Assembly: GCA_030917925.1 (NCBI GenBank)
Contig: JAUPTV010000160.1
Coordinates: forward strand, 1-34,779
Reading direction: 5' to 3'
Origin: Pseudomonadota bacterium
Lineage (GTDB): Bacteria; Pseudomonadota; Gammaproteobacteria; Competibacterales; Competibacteraceae
Length of the DNA stretch: 34,779 bases
Shown: in pieces, positions 2,183 through 34,779 of the stretch
How the letters are laid out: each line of letters starts with the position of its first letter
Numbering within the stretch: the stretch's first letter is position 1
Translations under genes and position numbers: made by a program
Notes under the pieces: model-generated
What the model saw: only the letters and a program-made list of their open reading frames with translations
Told to the model about the DNA's origin: nothing
Database searches by the model: none

Positions 2183-3823
2183 ATGTCCGTTCCCAGCAAC
2201 CTGCCGGTCTGGCAAGCACTGCAAGCCCATCATGCGGCTATCGCCAACCTGCATCTGCGTGACTTGTTCGCCGCTGATCCTGGGCGTTTCAACCAGTTCT
2301 CCCGGCGTTTCGGGGACCTGCTGATCGATTTTTCCAAGCATCGCATCACCGAAGAAACGTTGCCCCTACTCACTGAACTGGCCCGCCAGGCGCAACTGCC
2401 CACCTGCATCGAGCGGATGTTCAACGGTGAGATCATCAACCACACCGAACAGCGCGCCGTACTGCACGTCGCCCTGCGTAACCGGAGCAACCGGCCGATC
2501 CTCGTCAAGGGCCAGGATGTCATGCCGGAGGTGAATAACGTCCTCGAACACATGCGCAAATTCGCCGATCAGGTTCGCCGGGGCAAGTGGCGCGGCCATA
2601 CCGGCAAACGGATTCGCGATATCGTCAACATCGGTATCGGCGGCTCCGACCTGGGACCCAAAATGGTCTGCCAGGCGCTGGAACCCTACGGCGATCCGAC
2701 CTTGCGGATGCATTTCGTCTCCAACGTTGACGGTGCACACATCAGCCACGTCCTCGCTGAATGCGATCCGGAAAGCACTCTGTTCATCATCGCCTCCAAG
2801 ACCTTCACCACCCAGGAGACCATGACCAACGCCCATACCGCCCGCGCCTGGTTAATCAAGGAACTGGGCGATGAGTCAGCGGTGGCCAGGCACTTCGTCG
2901 CGGTTTCCACCAACACGGCCGGTGTCAGCCAGTTCGGCATTGATACCGCCAACATGTTCGAGTTCTGGGACTGGGTTGGCGGGCGCTATTCGCTGTGGTC
3001 AGCGATTGGTCTGCCGATCATGGTCTATCTGGGCATGGAGAATTTCATGGAGTTGCAGGAAGGTGCCCATGAAATGGATGAGCACTTCCGCACGGCCCCG
3101 CTGGAAGAGAATCTGCCGGTGATTCTGGGACTACTGGGCGTCTGGTACATCGATTTCTTCGGCGCTGACAGCCAGGTCACGCTGGTTTACGACGATTACC
3201 TGCGCTCGTTGCCCGATTATCTGCAACAACTGGATATGGAAAGCAACGGCAAGTCCATCGACCGGGAGGGTCAAGCGGTCACGGTCAACACCGGGCCGAT
3301 TCTATGGGGCGGTCTCGGGAATAACGGCCAGCACGCTTTCTATCAACTCCTGCATCAGGGTACGCATCTGGTTCCCGCCGATTTCCTGGCCCCGGCGCAC
3401 AGCCCGAACCCGATTGGCGACCATCACGCCATTTTGCTGGCCAATTGCCTGGCGCAAGCCGAAGCGCTCATGGTCGGCAAAACCGAAGCGCAGGCTCGCG
3501 CCGAACTCGAGAAGCAGGGTCTAAGTGGCGAAGCGCTGGAGCAATTGTTGCCGTACAAGGTGTTCCCTGGCAATCGCCCCAGCACCAGCCTGTTCTACCG
3601 CCAGATGACCCCGAAGGTTCTCGGCGCACTGCTGGCGCTGTATGAACACAAGGTGTTTACGCAGGGCGTGATCTGGAATATCAATTCCTTCGATCAGTGG
3701 GGCGTCGAACTCGGCAAGCAATTAGCCAACGCGATCTTGCCGGTGTTAAAAGGCGAGAAGCCGGCGACCGGCCATGATGCGTCCACCACCGGGCTGATCG
3801 AGTTCTGCCGGGCGGCGGATTAA
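2183..3823 (+). CDS. pgi: Glucose-6-phosphate isomerase
   Basis: This enzyme interconverts glucose 6-phosphate and fructose 6-phosphate in the cytoplasm (glycolysis and gluconeogenesis). The 546 residues match the usual bacterial length (E. coli 549). Both family signatures are present: the [14 protein letters not shown] segment, and near the end the [16 protein letters not shown] segment containing the catalytic-lysine region. The phosphate-binding [10 protein letters not shown] loop lies near residue 155, and [15 protein letters not shown] holds the active-site His region. The ATG at 2183 follows an AAAGGAAG ribosome site at about 2169. It is transcribed away from the coiled-coil gene and converges on a small minus-strand gene. 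I see no anomaly. Confidence 0.97.
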
Positions 3824-3831
3824 CAACGGCG

Positions 3832-4146
3832 TCAGTACTGCTCCCGCCCCTGTCTGGGGGCGGGTTTCGACGGAACCGGCAAGCCGGCTTCACTGGACAA
3901 GTTGGGCGGCCGGCGCCGACGAATGGGCGGGCGCTCAAGGTCCGGTTCGGCATTAACCCGCGCCCGGCGCAACCAGCTTAAAACGCGACGCTCAATGGCA
4001 GCCTGACTGGCTGACGGCAAGTCCCTGAAAATGAACGCGCCAGCGCCGAGCACCAGGGTCAATCCCCCCAGAAAGGTCATCAGTGGTTGCATGAATGCAA
4101 TCGCTAACAGCGCTGCTAACGCAAGCAGAATGTGTCGGATTTTCAA
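3832..4146 (-). CDS. Small membrane protein, unknown function
   Basis: A 104-residue protein. Residues 5-45 (HILLALAALLAIAFMQPL and TFLGGLTLVLGAGAFIF) are hydrophobic and look like one or two membrane-spanning segments. The rest is basic and Pro-rich (ERPPIRRRRPPN), probably a cytoplasmic tail. It starts 26 bases after the end of the PP2C phosphatase gene on the same strand, so the two are probably co-transcribed and it may be an accessory or anchor for that pathway (inference). I recognise no family. Its 3' end overlaps the pgi hairpin. Confidence 0.6.
   Translation of the reverse strand: MKIRHILLALAALLAIAFMQPLMTFLGGLTLVLGAGAFIFRDLPSASQAAIERRVLSWLRRARVNAEPDLERPPIRRRRPPNLSSEAGLPVPSKPAPRQGREQY
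3843..3867 (+). terminator. Hairpin downstream of pgi, possible terminator
   Basis: A perfect 8-bp stem (CCCGCCCC 3843-3850, loop TGTCTG, GGGGCGGG 3857-3864) is followed by only three T residues, 20 bases after the pgi stop. It lies inside the last codons of the convergent gene at 3832-4146. The stem is strong but the U-tract is short, so the call is tentative. Confidence 0.45.
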
Positions 4147-4172
4147 GGGAACGCCTCCAGCATTGCGGGAAA

Positions 4173-5267
4173 TCAGTCAGGAGTGGGCACCGCTTCAGCC
4201 TGAGTAGATTGGCGCACCAGTATCACCGTACAGTTATCGTCCGGCTGGCTTTGCTGCTCGTGAATGGCCGTCGCCAGTTCGGCCAGTAACTCATCCAGGA
4301 GTTCCTCGAGCGGCCGTTGGGGATGCGCCAACAGCGCCGGCCAACGGCGAATAAAAGCCTGAGGATCGCGCAGATGCCAAAGGCCGTCGCTGGCCAGCAG
4401 GTAAACCCGCTCCGGTTCCAGGGTCAGACGGCGACGGTCACTGAGACCGCGCAAAAACAGGGGTAGATTGCCATCATGCAACTCATAAAGTTCTTCATCA
4501 ATCGCTTCAGCATAGAAATTCGGCGCGCCCAGGGTGCTCCCAAGAATAAATGCCTGACTAATCTGCGAACTGGTCTGCGTATGAACCTGCTGCAGCCACT
4601 GGACGCTGTCCAGCAAACCCAGCAGGGCTAGATGTGTCGCGGGTACATGATCCACGGTCAGACACTGCACATGATGCGCATCAATGGCGTAGACGCGCGA
4701 ATCGCCGACATGGAACAGCAGCGCTGGCGACCGGGGCGGAATTTCCAGCAGAATCAGCGTACAACCGGTTTCCAGCCCGGCATCCTGAAATTCCCGGTAC
4801 AAGCGCCGATGCAACCGGTTGAGGTGATCGGAAATCTGGGTGAGATCCGTCATGGCCGGCAACTCAATCAGGCCCGCGGCGGCTTTTTCCGCCGCCTCCC
4901 GCCCATGGCTGTGGCCACCCATACCATCGAGCACCGCCAGACGTCGATGCCCATGCGGCCACCCGGTTACCGACAACCGGGTTTCCTGTTCACGCCACAG
5001 GAACCGGGCGCGGCCCTGGCCATCGATCCATAAAAAATTGTCCTGATTTTCCTTGCGCCCCTGGCCGGTCGGCGAGAGTAGCGAACGCACGGCGACCTCT
5101 AGTTGAGGACCACGACAACGCGATGCGCGATGCGGCGCAGGGTTTGAAAGCGAGGGTTGAGTAGACATCTGAAGTCGGGACACTGTCGTTAAGAAACCGG
5201 ACTGATTGAGAATACCGGATGGGCACAACTCGTGCGATGGCAATGAGGTTTCCGTATGATCCGACAC
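4173..5267 (-). CDS. PP2C-type Ser/Thr protein phosphatase
   Basis: A metal-dependent phosphatase expected to reverse phosphorylation by the adjacent Hanks-type kinases. PP2C motifs appear in order: GRKENQDNF (metal-binding Asp), LDGMGGHSHG (second metal Asp), FHVGDSRVY, LLASDGLW and QPDDNCTVI near the end. All catalytic aspartates are present. There is no membrane segment or signal peptide, so it should be cytoplasmic. The frame is open from GTG at 5267 (364 aa), but the first 33 residues are not PP2C-like. An ATG at 5168 (MSTQPS, 331 aa) is an equally plausible start, and neither has a convincing ribosome site. It is divergent from the pseudokinase gene across about 100 bases, suggesting a shared control region. 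Confidence 0.9.
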   Translation of the reverse strand: MSDHTETSLPSHELCPSGILNQSGFLTTVSRLQMSTQPSLSNPAPHRASRCRGPQLEVAVRSLLSPTGQGRKENQDNFLWIDGQGRARFLWREQETRLSVTGWPHGHRRLAVLDGMGGHSHGREAAEKAAAGLIELPAMTDLTQISDHLNRLHRRLYREFQDAGLETGCTLILLEIPPRSPALLFHVGDSRVYAIDAHHVQCLTVDHVPATHLALLGLLDSVQWLQQVHTQTSSQISQAFILGSTLGAPNFYAEAIDEELYELHDGNLPLFLRGLSDRRRLTLEPERVYLLASDGLWHLRDPQAFIRRWPALLAHPQRPLEELLDELLAELATAIHEQQSQPDDNCTVILVRQSTQAEAVPTPD

Positions 5268-5363
5268 CCGGTAGTTTCATCCTTCTGCTAGACTAATCAT
5301 AATGCGCCTTGCGGCTGTTAATTCAAACAAATCTTTTGGCACCCTACGACTAAATAATAACTT

Positions 5364-8012
5364 ATGGATATCGAAACGCGTCTTGAGGAGCTTGCACAAG
5401 CTTATGTCACCGGTCAACTGAGCGAGGCCGAGTTGGCGCGTCTTCAGAAAGAAGCTCTGCGTGAGGCAGGAAACAGTTCGGCGATGGGCAGAAACTACTC
5501 AAAAGCATCGTCCGTTAACGGCTCTGCCGGTTCGGACTCGTTATCCGCCGGAAAAACGATAGGTCCTCCCGAACGACGGATGCAATTGGCGCACGACCTT
5601 AGCGGATGGCGACGTCTCTGGCTGGCGCACCCGGCATTGTCTGCACAAGGCCGGGAAAACCCCGAGGAATTCCGGGCCATCAAGATTCTGCTACCGGTTG
5701 GCCAAGAACCGGGATCAGGCGGACCGGTGCGCGATGAGCGAGCCTCACGGGTCGATATGATCAACCTGCGTTCCTACCTGGCCAAGGTCAAGGCGCGGGT
5801 CCAACTGGCAACCAGACTGGAGCATCCCGTCATCGCCCGAATTTATGGCTGGCGACAAGGCGCTGATGGGTGGCCCTTCGCTGAAATGGAATATGTCAAC
5901 CCTCACCATGGCCATACTCTGGCGCAATTGCTCGAGGAATCAGGGCGAAACGGGCAGACCTGGGAAACAATTGCCCAATGGTTGCGACCTGTCGCAATGG
6001 CGCTAGACTACGCGCATGGCGAACATCGCTTCGCTCACCAGAATATCGATGCTGATACAATCTTCATCACCGATCAGGGAACCATCCGCTTGCTAGGCTT
6101 TGGTCTGGCCACCGAGATTCGGGAACCGCGCAGTGTCCTGTTCAGCACCGGCTCAGGTCGTGACGCCTCGGGCGACGGTTCCGCCGATTCAGTGTCTACA
6201 GAAACCACTTTTCGTCGTGATGTCTTCGCTCTGGCGCTGTTAATTTACCGGTTGTTGGCTGGACGCAGCGTCCAGGAAGCCCAGGGCCAACCGCCCGGTG
6301 CCGTGCCGCGACCGCCAGGACTGACGGACGATGCCTGGCAAGTCTTGCGGCGGGGGCTGGCGTATCCTAGCGAACTGTGTCCGACTAACGCTGGCCAGTT
6401 CATTCAGATGCTGGATGCAGCCCAACTGTCCGCGATGGCGACGGCGCGCAGTGGCGCCCTGCCCAAGTGGATCTGGGGATTGGCGGCGGCCCTGGCGGCG
6501 GCGATTAGCGGCGGCGTTTACTGGTTCAACCAGCCGGTTGACCGGGTGCCGATTTCGGCAGTCGCCACCAGTGAACCCGTTCCGGAGATAAAAACTCCAG
6601 TCAGCCCCCCTGTCGATGAAGGCGTTTCGCTACAGGCGGCGGAACGCGAAATCGATCAACAAGCCTTTGAAGCGGCCCGTCGGGTCGACAGCATCGCCGC
6701 TTACCAGCTTTACCTGCAACGCTGCCCCCGGTGCGGCTATGGGAAAGAAGCGCGGATCACTATCACGGCGCTGGAAAGCCGAAAAAAAATCGAAATGCTC
6801 AAGGCGGATTTCGCTGCGCTGGCCCCAGCGTTTGAGGACGGCCACGAAGAGCGCGGCCACGAAGCGCTGACCCGATTGGAGGCCTTGGTGGAATTGACGC
6901 CGGATGATCCACTGATCCCTGAAGGTCGGCGGCGGCTGGCGCGTGGCTGGGTCAAAATGGCGCTCACCAGCCTGAATAAATCCAACCCGGAGGATGCCAG
7001 AAAATGGTTAAAAAAGGCCCAGGCCATCGACCCGGAACTGCCAGAACTGGTCCCGCTGAACCAGGCGCTTATCCAGGCCGAAGCAGTAGCGCAAGTCCGA
7101 CAGACCGATATCGAAGCCTTCGCTGCCGCCCGGCGCATTGATACCCGCCGGGCTTACTGGGACTATCTCGACCGTTGCGGGACTAATTGTGGCCACCGTA
7201 CCGAGGCGGAAACCGCTCTTGCCCGCCTGACGCCCGCCTACGCGGCGCTGCGCGACCGGCTGAATGACGGTTCACAGGGTCCGGAAATGATCGTCATACC
7301 CGCTGGCGAGTTTTCGATGGGATCGCCGCCCGCTGAAACCGGTCGCTATAGCGATGAACACCTGCAATCCGTGCGCATCGAAAAATCCTTCGCCATCGGC
7401 AAATATGAAATCATGTTTCATGAATACGACCGGTTTGCGACGGTGACCAAAAGATCTTTGCCCAGCGATCATGACTGGGGACGCAGTCGGCGTCCGGTCA
7501 TCAATATTGACTGGAACAGCGCCACAGCGTACGCCGAATGGTTATCCCAGGAAACGGGACAACGCTACCGCCTGCCCACCGAAGCGGAGTGGGAATACGC
7601 TGCACGGGCCAAAACGACAACCAGCCGTTACTGGGGCAATGACCCGAATGAGGGATGCGCTTACGCCAATGCCGGCGATCTGGACGGGAAGAAAGTATTT
7701 GTGGGCTGGACAGCGATGCAATGCCATGATGGCCAGGTTTACACCGCCCCGGTGGGCAGTTATCGGAGCAACGAGTTCGGTTTATACGACATGCTGGGCA
7801 ATGTGCTGGAATGGACGTGTTCGATCTACAACAAGGAATCGAAGGCACCAGTCCAGCGTTGCCAGGAACCGGTCGGCGAACAGGAAATGGTCGTGCGCGG
7901 CGGTTCCTGGAGCGACGAGCCGCGTAATGTGCGTTCCGCCGACCGGCATCGCAACCGTCCGGAGTTCCGGGATTATTTTCTCGGATTCCGTCTGGTGCGA
8001 GAATTGCCCTGA
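5364..8012 (+). CDS. Transmembrane pseudokinase fused to SUMF1/FGE-like domain
   Basis: An 882-residue protein. Order: a short helical start (residues 1-40, LEELAQAYVTGQLSEAEL); a Hanks-type kinase fold at about 77-360; a membrane helix at about 369-388 (WIWGLAAALAAAISGGVYWF); two Cys-containing repeats (AFEAARRVDSIAAYQLYLQR and AFAAARRIDTRRAYWDYLDR, each ending in C-x2/3-C-G); and a SUMF1-type domain from about 640 to the end (VIPAGEFSMGS, RLPTEAEWEYAAR, VVRGGSW, GFRLVRE). The kinase looks dead: Lys107 of AIK is kept, but HRDxKPxN is HQNIDADT (Asn227, Asp229, Thr232) and DFG is GFG (Gly245); no Gly-rich loop is visible. The 18-residue spacing between the two altered Asp positions is normal, so the alignment is firm. 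The SUMF1 domain lacks the catalytic Cys pair of formylglycine-generating enzymes. Probable role: a scaffold or regulator with an extracytoplasmic binding domain. Confidence 0.9.
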   Translation: MDIETRLEELAQAYVTGQLSEAELARLQKEALREAGNSSAMGRNYSKASSVNGSAGSDSLSAGKTIGPPERRMQLAHDLSGWRRLWLAHPALSAQGRENPEEFRAIKILLPVGQEPGSGGPVRDERASRVDMINLRSYLAKVKARVQLATRLEHPVIARIYGWRQGADGWPFAEMEYVNPHHGHTLAQLLEESGRNGQTWETIAQWLRPVAMALDYAHGEHRFAHQNIDADTIFITDQGTIRLLGFGLATEIREPRSVLFSTGSGRDASGDGSADSVSTETTFRRDVFALALLIYRLLAGRSVQEAQGQPPGAVPRPPGLTDDAWQVLRRGLAYPSELCPTNAGQFIQMLDAAQLSAMATARSGALPKWIWGLAAALAAAISGGVYWFNQPVDRVPISAVATSEPVPEIKTPVSPPVDEGVSLQAAEREIDQQAFEAARRVDSIAAYQLYLQRCPRCGYGKEARITITALESRKKIEMLKADFAALAPAFEDGHEERGHEALTRLEALVELTPDDPLIPEGRRRLARGWVKMALTSLNKSNPEDARKWLKKAQAIDPELPELVPLNQALIQAEAVAQVRQTDIEAFAAARRIDTRRAYWDYLDRCGTNCGHRTEAETALARLTPAYAALRDRLNDGSQGPEMIVIPAGEFSMGSPPAETGRYSDEHLQSVRIEKSFAIGKYEIMFHEYDRFATVTKRSLPSDHDWGRSRRPVINIDWNSATAYAEWLSQETGQRYRLPTEAEWEYAARAKTTTSRYWGNDPNEGCAYANAGDLDGKKVFVGWTAMQCHDGQVYTAPVGSYRSNEFGLYDMLGNVLEWTCSIYNKESKAPVQRCQEPVGEQEMVVRGGSWSDEPRNVRSADRHRNRPEFRDYFLGFRLVRELP

Positions 8013-26556: not shown

Positions 26557-26631
26557 GGATTAAACGGATTACCGGATGACACGGAACCCGCCAGGTTCAA
26601 GCACAATTCGACGCCGATTATGCGCCATTCG

Positions 26632-26640
26632 TGCTAAAAT
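26632..26640 (+). promoter_or_regulatory. Candidate extended -10 promoter of gyrA
   Basis: TGCTAAAAT (extended TG-n plus TAAAAT) lies 57 bases upstream of the gyrA start at 26697. No good -35 is present at standard spacing, which is usual for extended -10 promoters. The ribosome site AGAGG (26686-26690) follows. Confidence 0.45.
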
Positions 26641-26696
26641 TCGTTCTTTCGCACCACCGCCCACCGGGGCGGGTCCGGCTTGCTCAGAGGCTCATG

Positions 26697-29600
26697 ATGA
26701 CTGAAATTGCTAAAGAAATTTTGCCCGTCAATCTTGAAGACGAAATGCGGCAATCCTATCTGGATTACGCGATGAGCGTGATCGTGGGCCGGGCGCTGCC
26801 GGATGTGCGTGATGGCCTCAAGCCGGTGCATCGGCGGGCGCTGTTCACTATGAGTGAACTGAACAATGATTGGAATAAACCGTATAAAAAATCAGCGCGT
26901 GTGGTCGGCGACGCGATTGGAAAATATCATCCACATGGCGATGTAGCCGTTTACGATACAATCGTGCGCATGGCGCAGACCTTTTCACTCCGTTATATGC
27001 TTGTGGATGGACAGGGAAATTTTGGCTGTTTTACAGGCGATACCAAAATTAAGCTGGCTGATGGAAGCGAAAAGAGCTTCGCCGAACTGGCTCAATTACC
27101 TTCAGATGAAGTTTTCTACGTCTATGCGGTTGACGATAACAATAATATTGTCATCGCAGAAGGCCGTTTTTCACGAATTACGCGCTATCAGGCGGAGTTG
27201 TTGCAAATAGTTTTGGATAATGATGAGGTGATATGCTGTACCCCTGATCATCGCTTTATGTTGCGTGATGGGGTTTATAAGGAGGCAAAAGATCTGACAC
27301 CGGAAGATAGTTTAATGCCGGGAGTTTTTGACACATTGCCTATCAAGAAAGGTTTAAATGACTATCTGCGAATATTCCAACCGAATTTAGGCGAGTACCA
27401 GTTTGTTCATCATCTCGCTGATGAATTCAATGCTCGCAATGGCTCAGCGCCAAAATTTAACGGACCCTTTGTCCGTCATCATAGCAATTTCAATCGATGG
27501 GATAACACACCACCTAACATCCAACGCTTGGCTTTTCTTGAGCATCTACATCTTCATGCTGCGCACATTGGCGAATTATGGAACCAGACTGCCTTCAGGG
27601 AAGCACAGAGAGAGGGTGTACAACGCTATTATGATGAAAATCCTGATGTTCGAAAATCTCGTCAACAACGATTTATCGCCCAAAATCAGGACGAGACCTT
27701 CCGCCAGCAAAATGGGCCACGCGTAGCAAAAAGTTTGAAGGAGCTTTATGCCGAAAATCCGCATCTCGGAGCAGCTATTTCTGAGCGGATGCAGCAACTG
27801 TGGCAAGATCCGGATTATCGGGAAAAGATGTCTGAGGCTTTAACTGGAATTGAGAAGAGACCGCTTTCACCCGAAGAAAAAGCGCGTGTTGCAGAAATTA
27901 TCTCACAGAAAAGCCGAATGATGTGGAGTGATCCTGCCAAGCGAGTGGAGATTACAGAAGCTATCTGCCGCGCATTAGCCTCAGAAGATATTCGCGCCAG
28001 GATTAGTCAGCGTGTTCGCCAGAATTGGCAAGATCCCGTTTATCGAGCCAAGTTTAATGCTGACCACTTCTCTAATATGGCTAAACGCTTATGGGAAAAG
28101 CCGGAAACCCGCGCTCTGCATCAGGAAAAGGTCAGGCAGCAATGGCAGGATACCGACTTTCGTGAGGCGCAAAAACAAAGCGTTCACCATAGTAATATCC
28201 GCCGGTTACAGCAAAATCCTGACATGATGCTGGAATTGAATGAAAAAGCGGTGTCTGCTTTACACAAAAACTGGCAAAAACCGGATTATCGACAACAGGT
28301 TATGCGCCAGAAAATCGCCGGTTATGTACAAAGCCTGATAAAAGCATTTCCCGACGCAGAGATTACTCCCAATCTTTACGAGTCACAGCGTTCGCAACAA
28401 TGGATTCCACGTTTGAAAAAAGCGCTGGAATACTTTAGTAGTTTCGAAGGTATGGTAGAGGCTGGGCGGCATTATAACCACCGTATCATCTCCAAGAATA
28501 TTCTGCATGAAACTGCTGATGTTTATGATATTACGGTCGACAAATACCACAATTTCCTCTTGGCTTCAGGCGTTTTTGTCCATAATTCTATCGACGGTGA
28601 TTCACCTGCCGCGATGAGATACACTGAAGTCCGCATGTCGCGGATTGCGCACGAACTCATGGCCGATCTCGAGAAGGAAACGGTCGATTTTGTCCCGAAT
28701 TACGATGAATCCGAACACGAGCCGACGGTATTCCCTACTCGTCTGCCCAATCTGCTGGTCAATGGCTCCTCCGGGATTGCGGTCGGCATGGCGACGAATA
28801 TCCCGCCGCATAATCTCGGCGAAGTGGTCGATGCCTGCATTGCGCTGATTGACGACCCCAGCCTGACGATTCCCCAATTAATGCGCTATTTGCCGGGGCC
28901 GGATTTCCCCACCGCAGCGCTAATTAACGGTGTCAGTGGCATCCGCGACGCTTACCTGACCGGGCGCGGGCGTATTCAGATGCGCGCCAAAACCGAGGTT
29001 GAAACCGATGAAGTGCGCAATCGCCAAGCGCTGATCGTCAATGAACTCCCCTATCAGGTGAACAAGGCGCGGCTCATTGAAAAAATCGCCGAGCTGGTCA
29101 AAGAGAAGAAAATCGAAGGCATTTCCGAACTGCGCGATGAATCCGACAAGGATGGAATGCGCATCTATATTGAATTGCGGCGCGGCGAATCGCCGGAAGT
29201 GGTGCTGAACAATCTGTTCCTGCATACCTCGCTGCAATGCGTGTTCGGCGTCAACATGGTCGCACTGGTGGAAGGCCAGCCGCGCCTGCTGAATCTTAAA
29301 CAGGTGCTGGATGCGTTCCTGGCGCATCGCCGGGAAGTGGTGGTGCGGCGCACCGTGTTCGATCTGCGCAAAGCCCGCGAACGGGCGCATATCGTTGAGG
29401 GCTTGATGGTCGCTCTGGCCAATCTCGATCCACTGATCGTCACGATTCGCGCCGCTGCCGATCCGGCCGCCGCCCGCGCTGCCCTGCTGGAGCGGGCCTG
29501 GCTACCGGGGGTTGTTGCGGACCTGCTGCAACGCACCGGCGCGAATTCGTCCCGGCCTGACGACTTGGGAGCGGAGTACGGATTGAGTGAGGCGGGCTAC

Positions 29601-30860
29601 CGATTGTCGCCTGCCCAGGTTCAGGCGATTCTGGACTTGCGCCTGCACCGCCTGACCGGTCTGGAACAGCGCAAGTTGCTGGATGAATACCAGGAATTGC
29701 TGACCCATATTGCTGATTATCTGGATATTCTGACCGTGCCGGAGCGCCTGACTTCCGTGATTCGCGCTGAATTGGTTGAATTACGCGCCCAGTATGCCGA
29801 TCCGCGCCGCACCACTATTCTCCCGGATGAGCAGAACTTCAATCTGGAAGATTTGATTAACGAAGAAACCATGGTGGTGACGCTCTCCCACGCTGGCTAT
29901 GTCAAATCCCAGTCGCTGTCGCTGTATCGGGCGCAGAAACGCGGTGGACGGGGCCGGGCGGTGACGACGGTCCGGGAAGAGGATTTCGTGGACAAGCTGT
30001 TCATCGCCAGTACCCACGACACCGTGCTGTGCTTCTCCAACCGGGGCCGGGTGTACTGGAAAAAGGTTTACGAACTGCCGCAGGCCAGCCGGACCGCACG
30101 GGGTCGCCCCATGGTCAATCTGCTGCCGCTGGAAGAAGGCGAACGGATCAATGCGGTCTTGCCGGTGCGCGAATTTGATGACGGCCACTATGTGTTTTTT
30201 GCTACGACCACTGGTACCGTGAAGAAAACCCCGCTGTCGGAATATTCCCGCCCCCGCACCAGCGGCATCATCGCCATTGATTTACGCGACGGCGATCAAC
30301 TGGTGGACGTGGCGCTGACCCACGGCCAAAGCGACATCATGCTGTTCAGCGACGCGGGCAAGGCACTGCGTTTCACCGAAACGGAAGTGCGCAATACGGG
30401 CCGTTCCGCCTGTGGCGTGCGGGGCATTCGCCTGGACGAGGGCCAGAAGGTCATCGCACTGATCGTGGTGGGCGAAGGCACCATCCTGACGGTGACGGAA
30501 AACGGTTTCGGCAAGCGCACGCCGGTGGCGGACTATCCCCTGCGCGGGCGCGGCGGTCAGGGCGTCATTTCCATCCAGACTTCGGAACGCAATGGCCGGG
30601 TGATTGGCGCGGTGCAGGTGGAAAATGATGACGAAATCATGCTGATCACCGATGGCGGCACCCTGGTGCGCACGCCGGTCGAGGGCATCTCGCTGATTGG
30701 CCGCAATACCCAGGGCGTGAAACTGATTAACGTTCAAAGCGATGAGAAACTGGTCGGGGTGGAGAAGATTGAAAATATCGGGGAAGTGGGCAGCGATCTG
30801 CTGGCCGAAGACGATGACAACCTAGCGTCCAGCGCGGGCGACGACGAGGAGGCGGTATGA
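26697..30860 (+). CDS. gyrA: DNA gyrase subunit A, interrupted by an in-frame intein
   Basis: The breaking-rejoining subunit of gyrase. Starting at ATG 26697 gives 1387 residues, of which 520 are an intein (separate entry), leaving 867 for mature GyrA (E. coli 875). AGAGG at 26686-26690 is six bases before this ATG; the adjacent ATG at 26694 is too close. The N-extein carries [20 protein letters not shown] and [13 protein letters not shown]. The C-extein starts [14 protein letters not shown] with the catalytic Tyr, then [20 protein letters not shown]. The C-terminal DNA-wrapping domain has the GyrA box QKRGGRG and an acidic tail ([15 protein letters not shown]). In E. coli numbering, position 83, normally Ser, is Val; Asp87 is kept. 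The stop overlaps the pheA start (ATGA). Active gyrase depends on splicing. Confidence 0.97.
27027..28586 (+). mobile_element. GyrA intein with HNH homing-endonuclease domain and tandem W-x-D-P modules
   Basis: An in-frame 1560-base insertion (520 residues) between GNFG and SIDGD. Splicing blocks are intact: Cys1 in [18 protein letters not shown]; block B CTPDHRF (Thr72, His75); block [16 protein letters not shown]; block G VFVHN (His519, Asn520) followed by Ser+1. Between them, residues about 123-180 form an HNH-type domain ([33 protein letters not shown]). Residues about 183-430 contain roughly a dozen degenerate units of about 20 residues around [40 protein letters not shown] and NWQKPDYR, resembling NUMOD-type DNA-binding modules. 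The insertion is clearly more A/T-rich than flanking gyrA, as expected for recent horizontal arrival. All motifs look functional. Confidence 0.95.
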
Positions 30861-31942
30861 GCGAAACCAACAGCCTGCAGGCGCTGCGCGAGCGCATTGA
30901 CGCGCTGGATCGGCAAATTCAAACGCTGATTACCGACCGGGCGCGGTGTGCGCAACATATCGGAGCGCTGAAACAGGCCGCCGGGGCGACCGGCAACTTC
31001 TACCGGCCTGAACGCGAGGCGCAGGTGTTGCGGCGGGTCATCGAAGCCAATCAGGGACCGCTGAGTAATGAGGAAATGGCGCGCCTGTTCCGTGAAATCA
31101 TGTCGGCGTGTCTGGCCTTGGAAGAACCGCTAAAAATCGCCTTTCTTGGCCCGGAAGGCACTTTTACCCAAGCGGCGGCGCTCAAACACTTCGGCAAGTC
31201 GATTCACAGCATTCCGTTGCGGGCGATTGATGAAGTATTCCGCGAAGTCGAAGCCGGTTCCGCCGATTATGGCGTGGTGCCGGTGGAAAACTCTACCGAA
31301 GGCGTGGTCAACCATACTCTTGATATGTTCCTACAATCACCGCTGCGGATTTGCGGCGAAGTGCAGATGCGCATCAATCATCATCTGATTACTCGGGCGG
31401 TAGAGTTGACCGACATTCGGCGGATTTATTCGCATCGGCAATCCCTGGCGCAGTGTCGGGAATGGCTGGATTCTAATATGCCCCGCGTGGAGCAAATTGA
31501 AGTCAGCAGCAATGGCGAAGCGGCGTTGCGGGTGCGGAATGAAGCGGATGCGGCGGCGATTGCCGGGCAATGCGCGGCGGATATTTATGAACTGCCGACC
31601 CTGGTGCGTAATATCGAAGATGAGCCGAATAATACTACCCGGTTTCTGATTATTGGCACTCAGCCAATTATGCCCTCCGGCGATGATAAAACCGCGCTGC
31701 TGGCTGCTTCACTTAATCGGCCTGGTACGCTGTTTAAATTGCTGGAGCCGTTGGCCCGGCACAATGTCAGCATGAACCGGATTGAATCGCGGCCGTCGCG
31801 ACGCGGCATGTGGGATTATGTTTTTTTCATTGACCTTGATGGTCATGCTCAGGATGAATCAGTGGCCAGTGCACTCACGGAATTGCGCGATCAGGCCAGT
31901 CTGTTCCGTGTGCTGGGGTCGTATCCCAAAGGTGTGTTGTAA
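30857..31942 (+). CDS. pheA: Bifunctional chorismate mutase / prephenate dehydratase (P-protein)
   Basis: Two steps of phenylalanine synthesis in one 361-residue protein. Residues 1-90: AroQ-type chorismate mutase ([19 protein letters not shown], then [14 protein letters not shown]). Residues about 93-270: prephenate dehydratase ([41 protein letters not shown] with the catalytic Thr). Residues about 280-361: ACT regulatory domain ([15 protein letters not shown], the ESRP motif, [12 protein letters not shown]) for phenylalanine feedback. ATG 30857 overlaps the gyrA stop and follows GAGGAGG inside gyrA, so the two are coupled. In Pseudomonas serC lies between gyrA and pheA; it is absent here. 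The last 79 codons are duplicated downstream of the restriction genes. Confidence 0.96.
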
Positions 31943-31972
31943 TCAGTAGAAAAGCTGAACCGCCAAGACGCC
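31706..31972 (+). repeat. Direct repeat copy A (functional pheA 3' end and trailer)
   Basis: 267 bases matching 34042-34308 in the same orientation without gaps. By eye there are about 25 mismatches (roughly 91% identity): 21 in 79 codons, of which only two codons change an amino acid (Thr to Ala twice), and four in the 30-base trailer ending GAACCGCCAAGACGCC. Homology stops abruptly at both sides. The restriction-modification pair lies between the copies. Confidence 0.92.
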
Positions 31973-32001
31973 AGTTAGTGAATGAAGAGAAGCTATAAAT
32001 A

Positions 32002-33150
32002 ATGGAACTCTTGGACACATTAGGTGTAGATGCTTGGGCGACTTTAAATAGTTCACCCTCTACAACACGCATCTCTAAGATTTCTGGTGAAATTGTCAGC
32101 GAAAACTTCAAGAAAGCCTTTATTGCCCATCAAAGCAACACCACAAAATCTCCTTTACTGCTGAGTGGTGATGCGGCGGCTATATTGTGCGATTTGCCTG
32201 ATGCCTGCATTGATTTTGCCATGACGTCACCACCCTATTGGGGCAAGCGTGAGTACGAAAACGGCGGCATCGGCCTGGAAAGCGATTATCGGGATTTCGT
32301 CAAGCATTTGGCTACCGTTTTCGCTCAATTAAAGCGGGTGCTAAAACCAGAAGGCTCTTTCTGGTTAAACCTTGGCGATAGCTACAACGGCAAAGGTTTA
32401 GTCGGTGTGCCTTGGCGTGTTGCCTTTGAGCTTGTAGATAATCAAGGCTGGATTCTGCGTAACAGCGTGATTTGGAATAAGCTAAAAGGGGGAATGGACA
32501 ACAGCAAAGATCGCCTCGGCAATGCCCATGAAAATGTCTTTCACTTTGTGAAGCAGGCTAAGAGTTACTACTACAACGCCGATGCCATTCGCTCAAAGCC
32601 GCGCAAGTCAAAAGTTGTCAACGGTGCAATCGTATCCGCTACTGGTGTTTCCGGTGTTCGGTACAAGCGCCAGATTGAGTTGTCAACCGCCCTTTCTGAT
32701 ACCGAAAAATCAGCGGCTTTCTCGGCTCTTGAGCAAATGTTGGCCGATATAAGCTCTGGCCGTGCGTCTGATTTCAGGATGATTATTCGTGGCCAGCAAC
32801 GCGCTACACACTCAGATAGCGAAAAAGTATCCGGCCGTGCAAAGGAGCTTCGTGACAAGGGTTTTTATTTCCTTAAATACCACCCCAAAGGCAGCAAGCC
32901 CAGTGACGTATGGGACATACTCCCCGAAGATACTCAGCATCGGGAAACTCACTTTGCGCCTTACCCTGTCGATCTTTGCTACCTTCCATTGCTGGCCACT
33001 TGTCCCGAGGGTGGCACGGTGCTTGACCCCTTCTGTGGAACTGGAACAACACTTATTGCCGCACGAAATCTTGACCGGAAGTCCGTAGGAATTGATATCT
33101 CACGCCGCTACTTGGAACTAACCCAAGAAAGATGCGAGTCTTTATTATGA
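32002..33150 (+). CDS. Type II DNA methyltransferase, beta class, probably N4-cytosine
   Basis: A 382-residue modification enzyme that protects host DNA from the endonuclease encoded immediately downstream. Motif IV, TSPPYWG (Thr75 to Trp80), is near the start; the SAM-binding motif I, DPFCGTGTTLIAA (Asp342), is near the end with IGIDISRRYLE after it. This order (IV before I) defines the beta class. SPPY rather than DPPY favours N4-methylcytosine. A variable stretch of about 110 residues (about 195-305) between YYYNADAIR and KYHPKGSKPSDVW is probably the target-recognition region. ATG 32002 follows AGAGAAG. The stop overlaps the nuclease start by ATGA. The composition is more A/T-rich than the gyrA and asnS genes. 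No controller gene is visible. The modified sequence cannot be predicted here. Confidence 0.93.
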   Translation: MELLDTLGVDAWATLNSSPSTTRISKISGEIVSENFKKAFIAHQSNTTKSPLLLSGDAAAILCDLPDACIDFAMTSPPYWGKREYENGGIGLESDYRDFVKHLATVFAQLKRVLKPEGSFWLNLGDSYNGKGLVGVPWRVAFELVDNQGWILRNSVIWNKLKGGMDNSKDRLGNAHENVFHFVKQAKSYYYNADAIRSKPRKSKVVNGAIVSATGVSGVRYKRQIELSTALSDTEKSAAFSALEQMLADISSGRASDFRMIIRGQQRATHSDSEKVSGRAKELRDKGFYFLKYHPKGSKPSDVWDILPEDTQHRETHFAPYPVDLCYLPLLATCPEGGTVLDPFCGTGTTLIAARNLDRKSVGIDISRRYLELTQERCESLL

Positions 33151-33998
33151 GCAAAGTGGTTGAGCTATTTGGCCAGTCAGTGGCAAAACCCGACGTGGAC
33201 TGGAAGGCCATTGTGACCGGACAGCAATGCGTCTATTTAAATAAGAAATGCTACAAGATTCGCAAAAGTGACCCAGATACTGTCATTGGTTCATGCACCG
33301 TCCTTTATGGGCGAGAGCCAGAACCCGTCATCATTTGCCCAACTCGACTGATTGAGCGTAGACAGATATTCACGGATTGTTTTCACCTATTAACCACGCA
33401 TGAACCCGGAAATGAACTTCATGTAGTTTCTGAGGTTTCCATTCCCGGCGGCAGCGTCGATTACTTCCTTGTGTCAGTGAAGGGCGGCAAGGTAAAGGAT
33501 TTTGTGGGTATTGAGCTTCAAACGCTTGATACCACTGGCACCGTATGGCCTGAGCGTCAGATATTGCTGAAGGAGTTGGGTGTTTCTCGCGGCGACGATG
33601 GAGAAGATTCGGACAAGACCTTTGGCATGAACTGGAAGATGACAGCAAAGACCATTCTGGTTCAGATGCACCACAAGATTAATACTTTTGAGCATGTGAA
33701 TAAGAAGTTGGTATTGGTGATTCAAGACCAGTTACTGAATTATATGAGCCGCGCATTCAAATTTGACCATCTTCGCAATCCCGCAAGTATCGGCGACTCC
33801 ATGCACTTGCACGCATACCGGATGGATGTACAGGCCGACAACTCATACAAACTCACGATGCAATCACGCTTGAGTACCGATGCGGACGGAATTGGTCTTT
33901 GCCTTGGGCTTCAGGCGGAAGCACGGATTGAATTGGAACAGATTATTCAAGCTCTTCAAACGAAAATATCTACCTCTACCCTTTTTATTCCTGTTTAG
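33147..33998 (+). CDS. Probable type II restriction endonuclease, NotI-like Cys4 family
   Basis: A 283-residue protein from ATG 33147 (MSKVVELFGQ). An upstream ATG at 33132 is open, but 33147 gives the usual ATGA overlap with the methyltransferase. I see the NotI pattern as I recall it: four spaced cysteines (Cys28, Cys35, Cys50, Cys64, the last in IICPTR, compare LVCPNR in NotI), which hold iron in NotI; then Glu96, Asp105 in SVDYFLV, and GIELQTLD (Glu123, Gln125; compare LEIQTMD in NotI). This matches the PD-(D/E)xK variant active site of NotI. The downstream half (FGMNWKMTAKTILVQM, KLVLVIQDQLLNYM) is also reminiscent of it. It is about 100 residues shorter than NotI. The specificity could be GC-rich, but that is inference. 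Confidence 0.8.
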   Translation: MSKVVELFGQSVAKPDVDWKAIVTGQQCVYLNKKCYKIRKSDPDTVIGSCTVLYGREPEPVIICPTRLIERRQIFTDCFHLLTTHEPGNELHVVSEVSIPGGSVDYFLVSVKGGKVKDFVGIELQTLDTTGTVWPERQILLKELGVSRGDDGEDSDKTFGMNWKMTAKTILVQMHHKINTFEHVNKKLVLVIQDQLLNYMSRAFKFDHLRNPASIGDSMHLHAYRMDVQADNSYKLTMQSRLSTDADGIGLCLGLQAEARIELEQIIQALQTKISTSTLFIPV

Positions 33999-34014
33999 TG
34001 TACCGAACCATCCA

Positions 34015-34278
34015 ATGCATAACCTGTCGCTCAACGCGGACGCTTCGCTCAATCGGCCTGGCGCGTTGTTCAAGTTGCTGGAGCCGCTGGCTCGGCACAA
34101 TGTCAGCATGAACCGGATTGAATCGCGGCCTTCGCGGCGCGGCATGTGGGACTATGTGTTTTTCATTGACCTTGATGGCCATGCTCAGGATGAGTCAGTG
34201 GCCAGCGCACTCGCCGAATTGCGCGATCAGGCCAGTCTGTTCCGGGTACTGGGGTCGTATCCCAAGGGTGTGTTGTAA
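34015..34278 (+). pseudogene. pheA 3' fragment (ACT domain), duplicated
   Basis: Codons for [15 protein letters not shown] through to LGSYPKGVL and the TAA are an intact but isolated ACT domain corresponding to the last 79 codons of pheA, without the mutase or dehydratase parts. An ATG at 34015 in the attC-like segment gives an 87-residue frame, so a small ACT protein could be made, but no ribosome site is evident. Differences from pheA are nearly all silent, so the fragment was recently part of a working gene. Confidence 0.88.
34017..34043 (+). other. Integron attC-like half site (tentative)
   Basis: GCATAAC followed by CTGTCGCTCAACG and CGGACGC, 19 bases after the endonuclease stop, resembles the first half of a cassette recombination site (RYYYAAC, spacer, TCAA, CGGAC). 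The second half with GTTRRRY is not found; the pheA remnant begins at the end of this element. The match to the core is imperfect (GCATAAC against GCCTAAC). This is a candidate relic only. Confidence 0.3.
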
Positions 34279-34308
34279 TCAGTGAACAAGTTGAACCGCC
34301 AAGACGCC
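34042..34308 (+). repeat. Direct repeat copy B (pheA 3' end remnant and trailer)
   Basis: The partner of 31706-31972, 2336 bases downstream, same orientation, no gaps. It includes the stop codon and 30 bases of trailer, so the repeat is defined at the DNA level and not by protein similarity alone. Third positions are more G/C-rich than in copy A. Confidence 0.92.
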
Positions 34309-34408: not shown

Positions 34409-34609
34409 ATGCTTACAGCAGAATTTGTTGAACAATCTGTAGAGCAACTACCACCTGAAGAACTTGCCAAGTTTCGTTATTGGTATGCCCGATTCGACGC
34501 TGATGCTTGGGACGCGCAGATTGAAGCTGATGCCGCTGCGGGTAAGCTTGATGCACTGGCCGCAGAAGCGCTCGCTGAATACCACAATGGTCAGGCGCGG
34601 GAATTGTGA
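34409..34609 (+). CDS. Type II toxin-antitoxin antitoxin (small, acidic)
   Basis: A 66-residue acidic protein from ATG 34409 (GGAGAGA just upstream; another ATG six codons earlier is possible). MLTAEFVEQSVEQLPPEEL, FRYWYARFDADAWDAQIEAD and KLDALAAEALAEY are characteristic of a widespread small antitoxin family that accompanies RelE/ParE-like toxins. The stop overlaps a GTG start (GTGA) of the next frame, the usual arrangement for such pairs. The partner toxin is broken here, so the antitoxin is probably an orphan. Confidence 0.75.
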   Translation: MLTAEFVEQSVEQLPPEELAKFRYWYARFDADAWDAQIEADAAAGKLDALAAEALAEYHNGQAREL

Positions 34610-34665
34610 GGCATTTTGTTTCTCGCAAATTTTGGGAATGCTTCCAGGCATTACCACATGGGTAG
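34606..34665 (+). pseudogene. RelE/ParE-like toxin, truncated by insertion element
   Basis: GTG 34606 starts VRHFVSRKFWECFQALP, the typical beginning of toxins that follow this antitoxin type (Phe-Trp-x-Cys/His, then ALP). After 19 residues the frame meets TAG at 34663, where the IS-like end begins, so the rest was displaced. The remainder may lie beyond the right edge on the other side of the element. Confidence 0.6.
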
Positions 34666-34779
34666 TCCTGTAGAAAGTAGTGATTAATTTATGGTATGAT
34701 TTTAGTAGTAACCAATAGAGTGAGTAAAGAACGATGATTTGTCCTAATTGTCATTCCGTCAATGTTGTAAAAAATGGCA
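34661..34779 (+). mobile_element. Left part of an IS1-like insertion sequence
   Basis: The element appears to start near GGTAGTCCTGTAG at 34661, where toxin coding similarity stops. About 70 bases of A/T-rich lead follow, then a transposase start. Its other end, inverted repeat and target duplication are outside the window, so the exact boundary is unproven. Confidence 0.6.
34734..34779 (+). CDS. Transposase (IS1-type, first frame), partial
   Basis: ATG 34734 opens MICPNCHSVNVVKNG and runs off the right edge after 15 codons. C-P-x-C followed by VKNG is the zinc-binding beginning of IS1-family InsA-like proteins. The short length limits certainty. Confidence 0.65.
   Translation, partial: MICPNCHSVNVVKNG

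Follow-up and report, generated by a model that had tools for sequence, protein, structure and literature searches.

The Cys4 site of the restriction endonuclease NotI holds iron. NotI (PDB 3bvq and, bound to DNA, 3c25; Pfam PF12183) and the endonuclease described here share their fold, four cysteines in register and the D/E-x-Q catalytic residues; NotI has 383 amino acids, however, against 283 in our protein, and a direct single-sequence search fails to connect the two. Plasmid pairs of Klebsiella, Serratia and Acinetobacter NEB 394 (pBspH9), whose endonucleases NCBI already names 'NotI family restriction endonuclease', are 60-61% identical to ours and, in the two records examined, have methyltransferase followed by endonuclease, the same order as here. 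Those copies are plasmid-borne, whereas the contig that bears ours also holds gyrA and pheA.

As to genomic setting, long target duplication on insertion of a restriction-modification (R-M) system has already been published (Nobusato 2000 and Furuta 2010, as related in passages of PMC3031569 and PMC3874152), and homology-facilitated illegitimate recombination and cassette transfer by transformation are known processes as well (PMC3240628, PMC3410848). The locus studied here, in a window (the whole stretch of DNA analysed) of 34,779 nucleotides from a Competibacteraceae genome, resembles the published long-duplication systems in that its R-M pair stands between two long direct copies of the end of a host gene (267 nt, 91% identical; Table 1), but differs from them in that the two copies look like two selected alleles and one join crosses a broken attC-like site. 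Its affinity with integron gene cassettes lies in the attC-like sites that adjoin relatives at loci L002, L004 and L008, the window copy keeping part of one.

Table 1. Features of the R-M locus and its borders, in window coordinates
Feature	Position	Strand	Remarks
Intact pheA (chorismate mutase / prephenate dehydratase / ACT)	30857-31942	+	directly upstream of the R-M pair
First copy of the 267-nt direct repeat	31706-31972	+	pheA 3' end plus 30 nt, ends in AACCGCCAAGACGCC
Putative left cassette edge	31973-32001	+	before the methyltransferase start; holds GTTAGTG
N6/N4 amino DNA methyltransferase	32002-33150	+	382 aa; N6_N4_Mtase PF01555, 160.7 bits
NotI-family (PF12183) type II restriction endonuclease	33147-33998	+	283 aa; Cys4, catalytic residues assigned by homology
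Putative remnant 5' arm of an attC-like site	34017-34044	+	GCATAAC...GGACGCT, cut at the pheA-tail join
Second copy of the 267-nt repeat	34042-34308	+	pheA tail without start, ends in the same 15-mer AACCGCCAAGACGCC

The endonuclease and its family

Translation upheld what the original prediction had read from the letters, namely a 283-residue frame with cysteines at positions 28, 35, 50 and 64, a D...E-x-Q arrangement and a start that overlaps the methyltransferase stop (ATGA at 33147-33150, with TGA inside). D105 lies in SVDYFLV, E123 and Q125 in GIELQTLD, and two further cysteines occupy positions 78 and 252. An alternative, longer frame could begin at an ATG at 33132; methionine stands at the position of the 33147 start in 41 of 48 aligned rows, which were trimmed at the match start, so that this count says nothing on longer forms. 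Throughout the subfamily alignment (48 proteins out of 56 collected, eight short or stop-containing ones being left out), C28, C35, C50, C64, C78, E123 and Q125 are kept in 48/48 and D105 in 47/48. A wider alignment of 21 members, where the 20 others share 17-78% identity with the window endonuclease and 14 of the members lie at 17-25%, leaves E6, C28, C35, K37, C50, C64, R67, E96, D105, E123, Q125, G131, Q173 and K177 invariant; C78, fixed in the subfamily, varies there. Such conservation among both the 48 subfamily proteins and the 21 members indicates that the pattern of cysteines, D and E-x-Q is more than a chance resemblance.

The endonuclease scores 29.9 bits with the NotI model PF12183, whose cut-off is 22, and is also matched by a PADLOC model for type II endonucleases; none of the NCBIfam models matched it. 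Matches to PF12183 occur in 13 of 398 genomes of the phylum, at 14 places, and because our protein falls with the seven that score 22-36 bits, as opposed to the seven at 108-264 bits, it reads as a remote branch of the NotI family. The profile built from the 21 members finds NotI (3bvq) at 5.9e-16, aligning C28, C35, C50 and C64 with NotI cysteines and setting D105, E123 and Q125 on NotI D160, E182 and Q184 (residue numbers counted on that profile alignment to 3bvq). The proposed kinship with NotI was thus borne out, as was the Cys4 and E-x-Q signature, in register with NotI and invariant in 21/21, and neither of the outcomes named beforehand as refuting it was observed, although the link depended on the breadth of the profile: phmmer with the window endonuclease alone and a narrow subfamily profile each returned nothing from the PDB sequences, and one core NotI-family member used as single query missed NotI too.

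The AlphaFold model, computed from an input of 45 sequences (pLDDT 89, pTM 0.88), aligns with DNA-bound NotI (3c25) at Z 18.2 over 242 residues (rmsd 3.5, 20% identity), and the overlay spans model residues 1-255, Cys region included; the next row other than NotI reaches Z 6.6. The predicted structure therefore agrees with the homologous fold that had been proposed, although no Foldseek match reached E <= 0.001 and NotI was absent from the 50 matches listed out of 287.

The methyltransferase partner and the function of the pair

The methyltransferase carries TSPPY near its N-terminus and DPFCGTGTT near its C-terminus in an intact frame, and from the order of these motifs we take it to be of the beta class. 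Its PF01555 match and the ATGA overlap of the two neighbouring genes support the R-M pairing proposed at the outset. At 51 of 55 loci a related methyltransferase lies at most 3 kb from the endonuclease; no methyltransferase match was obtained at L010, L021, L036 and L051, three of which have only 3-63 nt upstream. Family, fold, conserved residues and gene pairing of the endonuclease are established in this analysis.

The two genes very probably form a compact type II R-M pair with a NotI-family PD-(D/E)XK endonuclease. The N-terminal Cys4 site would hold a structural metal beside the DNA, as homology with NotI suggests, and D105, E123 and Q125 would cut a palindrome that the neighbouring amino-methyltransferase protects, so that the pair would restrict unmarked incoming DNA; metal, cleavage and palindromic target we infer. 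That the endonuclease might instead be a decayed or repurposed NotI relative is extremely improbable: stops or frameshifts do appear to interrupt the gene in relatives L042, L048 and L052, but in the window it is full length and keeps its catalytic and cysteine residues, and the methyltransferase frame is intact.

Core NotI-family systems share the invariant Cys4 and E-x-Q residues but not the partner. On three plasmids the neighbours of core genes are annotated as DNA cytosine methyltransferases, and at L119, L120 and L122 they are D12/Dam-like by motif. A second endonuclease of the source genome (G000:C129:34224-34868; L121, L143) belongs to this core with 189 bits, and the open reading frame beside it, cut by the contig end, is D12/Dam-like by motif with a Pfam D12 score of 20.2 bits, below the cut-off of 22. 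The window subfamily, with its N6/N4 amino-methyltransferases, is paired with a different methyltransferase class than the core members examined.

A GC-rich or rare-cutter target, which the original prediction had raised as a possibility, found no support. Word counts over 39 family genomes give 141 sites of GCGGCCGC in the source genome against 312 of the reversed word, a ratio of 0.45, and ratios of 0.14-0.42 in five genus relatives; relative to these the source genome shows no depletion of GCGGCCGC, and the presence of the word is compatible with GCGGCCGC as the target. TCATGA, the site cut by BspHI, occurs at 211 per Mb against 260-321 in the five genus relatives, and some other family genomes are as low in it as the source genome. 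Neither count decides specificity. Acinetobacter species H, from which the BspH systems come, has a 60% identical copy. For Acinetobacter NEB 394, passages of PMC8259958 and PMC9122589 give the motifs AGCACC, CGCCC and GTAGAT, and these passages assign no target to the pBspH9 pair.

Distribution of relatives

Relatives were found at 54 genome loci, on one viral contig, in 35 plasmid records (8 of the 35 having a place that covers at least 80%) and in one phage record. As far as sequences are concerned, the suggestion of few NotI relatives accordingly fails, given the 54 loci and 35 plasmid records; our literature search, in which subscription journals were poorly covered, found no paper that characterises the subfamily. 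Identity reaches 87-91% with contigs binned as cyanobacteria and Bacillota, against a presence in 3 of 39 genomes of the source family, two of the three partial; this contrast points to spread by horizontal transfer, with binning errors in the cyanobacterial and Bacillota assemblies being possible.

The duplicated pheA tail

Between the two pheA tails 20 of 79 codons differ, 18 of the 20 synonymously, and 17 of the 21 changes fall at third positions and none at second. Drift confined to a lone free copy predicts a synonymous share of about 29% (p 2.5e-8); attributing only half of the changes to that copy raises p to 0.011, which weakens the argument for import. Because 18 of the 20 differing codons are synonymous, one tail probably arrived with the cassette, and the mostly silent differences favour two alleles rather than one resident sequence. 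The second copy is nearer than the first to all ten relatives compared (a subset of the 19 relatives' pheA loci), and the first tail was probably imported from an unsampled near relative, even if faster change in the first copy could also account for these distances. No donor emerges from the comparison: the two tails share 91% identity, more than the 86% at most that the second copy reaches with the relatives examined.

A third pheA tail, of 94 nt, stands at the end of contig C249 and leads to hisC- and tyrA-like genes (named by eye). Of the 39 family genomes searched, 37 have a pheA-tail match, and among these extra tails occur only in the source genome; a second match in G049, 31% identical, was taken as another gene. 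Among 29 relatives' loci, 10 have a hisC-like gene 25-140 nt behind pheA and 4 have one at 373-1322 nt, and it is absent from the stretch read in 15, among them four of the five genus relatives, for which reason hisC may be regarded as the native neighbour of pheA at the level of the family only. At L092, L094, L099, L101 and L115 a similar open reading frame lies directly behind pheA (approximately SPWKxVLERYFPAFLAWFFP, translated by eye), and four of these five have the hisC-like gene 373-1322 nt downstream; such a frame with a distant hisC-like gene in related genera would suggest repeated insertion into the gap behind pheA. On C249 (L078, G000:C249, approximately 4225-4861) the third tail is followed by a 101-aa frame without Pfam match, flanked by a variant of AACCGCCAAGACGCC and an inverted copy, and then by the hisC-like gene. 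The word AACCGCCAAGACGCC occurs nine times in the source genome (31958-31972, 34294-34308 and seven others in L079-L081 and L084-L087), and its reversed word not once. With seven of the nine occurrences away from the R-M pair it was ruled out as a cassette end; it is a scattered repeat also found behind pheA, and both repeat copies end exactly there.

Farther upstream in the window, gyrA (26631-30860) is interrupted by an intein in frame; residues 141-652 match Intein_splicing (PF14890) at 65.7 bits, above the cut-off of 35.8. Downstream, 34409-34779 contains a 66-aa frame without Pfam match, presumably antitoxin-like, and then the start of another frame at the window end, which we take for that of an IS1-type transposase.

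Possible traces of an integron

Sites were called attC-like on core-site words and folding, with no curated model. L002 has an attC-like hairpin at 2085-2155, the outer ends of which pair poorly, and another at 3573-3635; such sites flank the R-M pair of L008 on both sides (3740-3808 and 5859-5927), and L004 has one after the endonuclease (2621-2706). Past the endonuclease stop the window agrees with L002 at 38 of 46 positions over 33999-34044 and then at 16 of 45, and among the loci compared outside the source genome the arm finds matches beyond 13 nt only in L002. GCT at 34042-34044 is a 3-nt overlap common to the attC arm and the pheA tail. At the left edge, GTTAGTG might conceivably, judging by eye, be a remnant of the cassette's own core site.

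A rule-based scan covered the window and 54 of the 55 loci. In three of these 55 stretches it called an attC-like site after the endonuclease, against 5 of 1197 control windows; the L002 site fell below its threshold, and the one called in L042 is perhaps a plain palindrome. After the window endonuclease the scan called no complete attC, the 5' arm standing there alone. Since a complete site is missing here and complete-looking ones are seen in L002, L004 and L008, the window pair would qualify as a 'former cassette' at most. An integron integrase is encoded in the source genome and scores 469 bits, the cut-off being 265; 18 of 39 family genomes pass this cut-off and 0 of 14 control genomes do. 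The contig ends beside the integrase gene, and no array is readable there.

Flanking repeats at other loci

Direct repeats on both sides within 1 kb are found in the window and at 3 of 43 loci (L009, L042 and L045) but in none of the 165 pseudo-cassette controls, of which 38 loci supplied 111 and the window 54, an enrichment with p 0.0018 when the window is included and 0.008 when it is left out; the controls overlap by design, and the 1-kb rule was fixed after a first view of the flanking repeats. The L009 repeat duplicates the end of an ORF6N gene and fits plain duplication better; because 4 of its 5 changed codons alter the amino acid, import is not general. A duplication of a hicAB-like pair at L054 (925 nt, 96%; HicB above cut-off, HicA at 25.6 bits against 27) falls outside the 1-kb rule. 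Repeats at L003, L004, L011, L037, L039, L041, L046, L050 and L051 were left uncounted, being too far, short, inverted or other repeats; those flanking L008 are its attC-like sites, and its right flank is too short for the 1-kb test. Behind the duplicated ORF6N tail of L009, a 670-aa protein (3593-5605) with weak HATPase_c matches below cut-off and no PADLOC match is possibly a second cargo.

History of the locus

We tentatively favour the reading that the pair is a former integron gene cassette whose attC site was largely lost as its downstream side became fused to the 3' part of pheA. By the likeliest route, the incoming DNA would have carried a divergent pheA tail together with the R-M pair; on the left the incoming tail would have recombined homologously with the resident pheA, on the right a join would have formed at the 3-nt overlap, and the product would be an intact pheA with the donor 3' end, then the R-M pair, then the resident pheA tail. 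It is possible, if rather unlikely, that the R-M pair was inserted behind pheA with a long target duplication made on the spot, the copies diverging by 9% later. Insertions of R-M systems with long, variable duplications, on the order of 100 bp, are described in passages of PMC3031569 and PMC3874152, and the enrichment of flanking repeats over the controls speaks for a process of this kind, but the predominance of synonymous and third-position changes is unlike free-copy drift, and the first copy is the more distant one from all ten relatives.

Campbell-type integration, in which a circle carrying the R-M pair and a pheA tail recombined homologously with the chromosome, would yield the same product with divergent tails and would accommodate the third tail by the hisC-like gene on C249, as from stacked integrations, the order being deduced across a separate contig; it requires, however, that pheA tails flanked the cassette in the donor beforehand, and with no such arrangement found in the 39 family genomes we consider it quite unlikely. 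A chimera of two strains produced by draft assembly is very unlikely, although the draft genome counts 299 contigs and the third pheA tail is interrupted by the end of C249: with just 3 nt common to the attC arm and pheA, their join needs real reads, and both joins would depend on roughly 2 kb of R-M sequence, the endonuclease of which turned up a single time in the genome. A broader proposal is that the subfamily departed from NotI-like specificity, perhaps towards an A/T-containing target, as its copy in the source species of the BspH systems would hint, and that it exits integron arrays in the form of a bare R-M cassette carried by the tail of a donor gene. We regard this as doubtful; if true, host gene 3' ends would be homology handles, the final site would need no integrase, and cassettes could stack behind one gene.

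Conclusions

The new part of these findings is the history, which is suggestive, the R-M pair itself being already annotatable as NotI family. What the analysis confirms is a widespread NotI subfamily, the targets of which are readable by methylome sequencing. Its surroundings in the window may preserve an R-M cassette in passage from integron to chromosome, and would then make a case for the settling of defence genes without a transposase.
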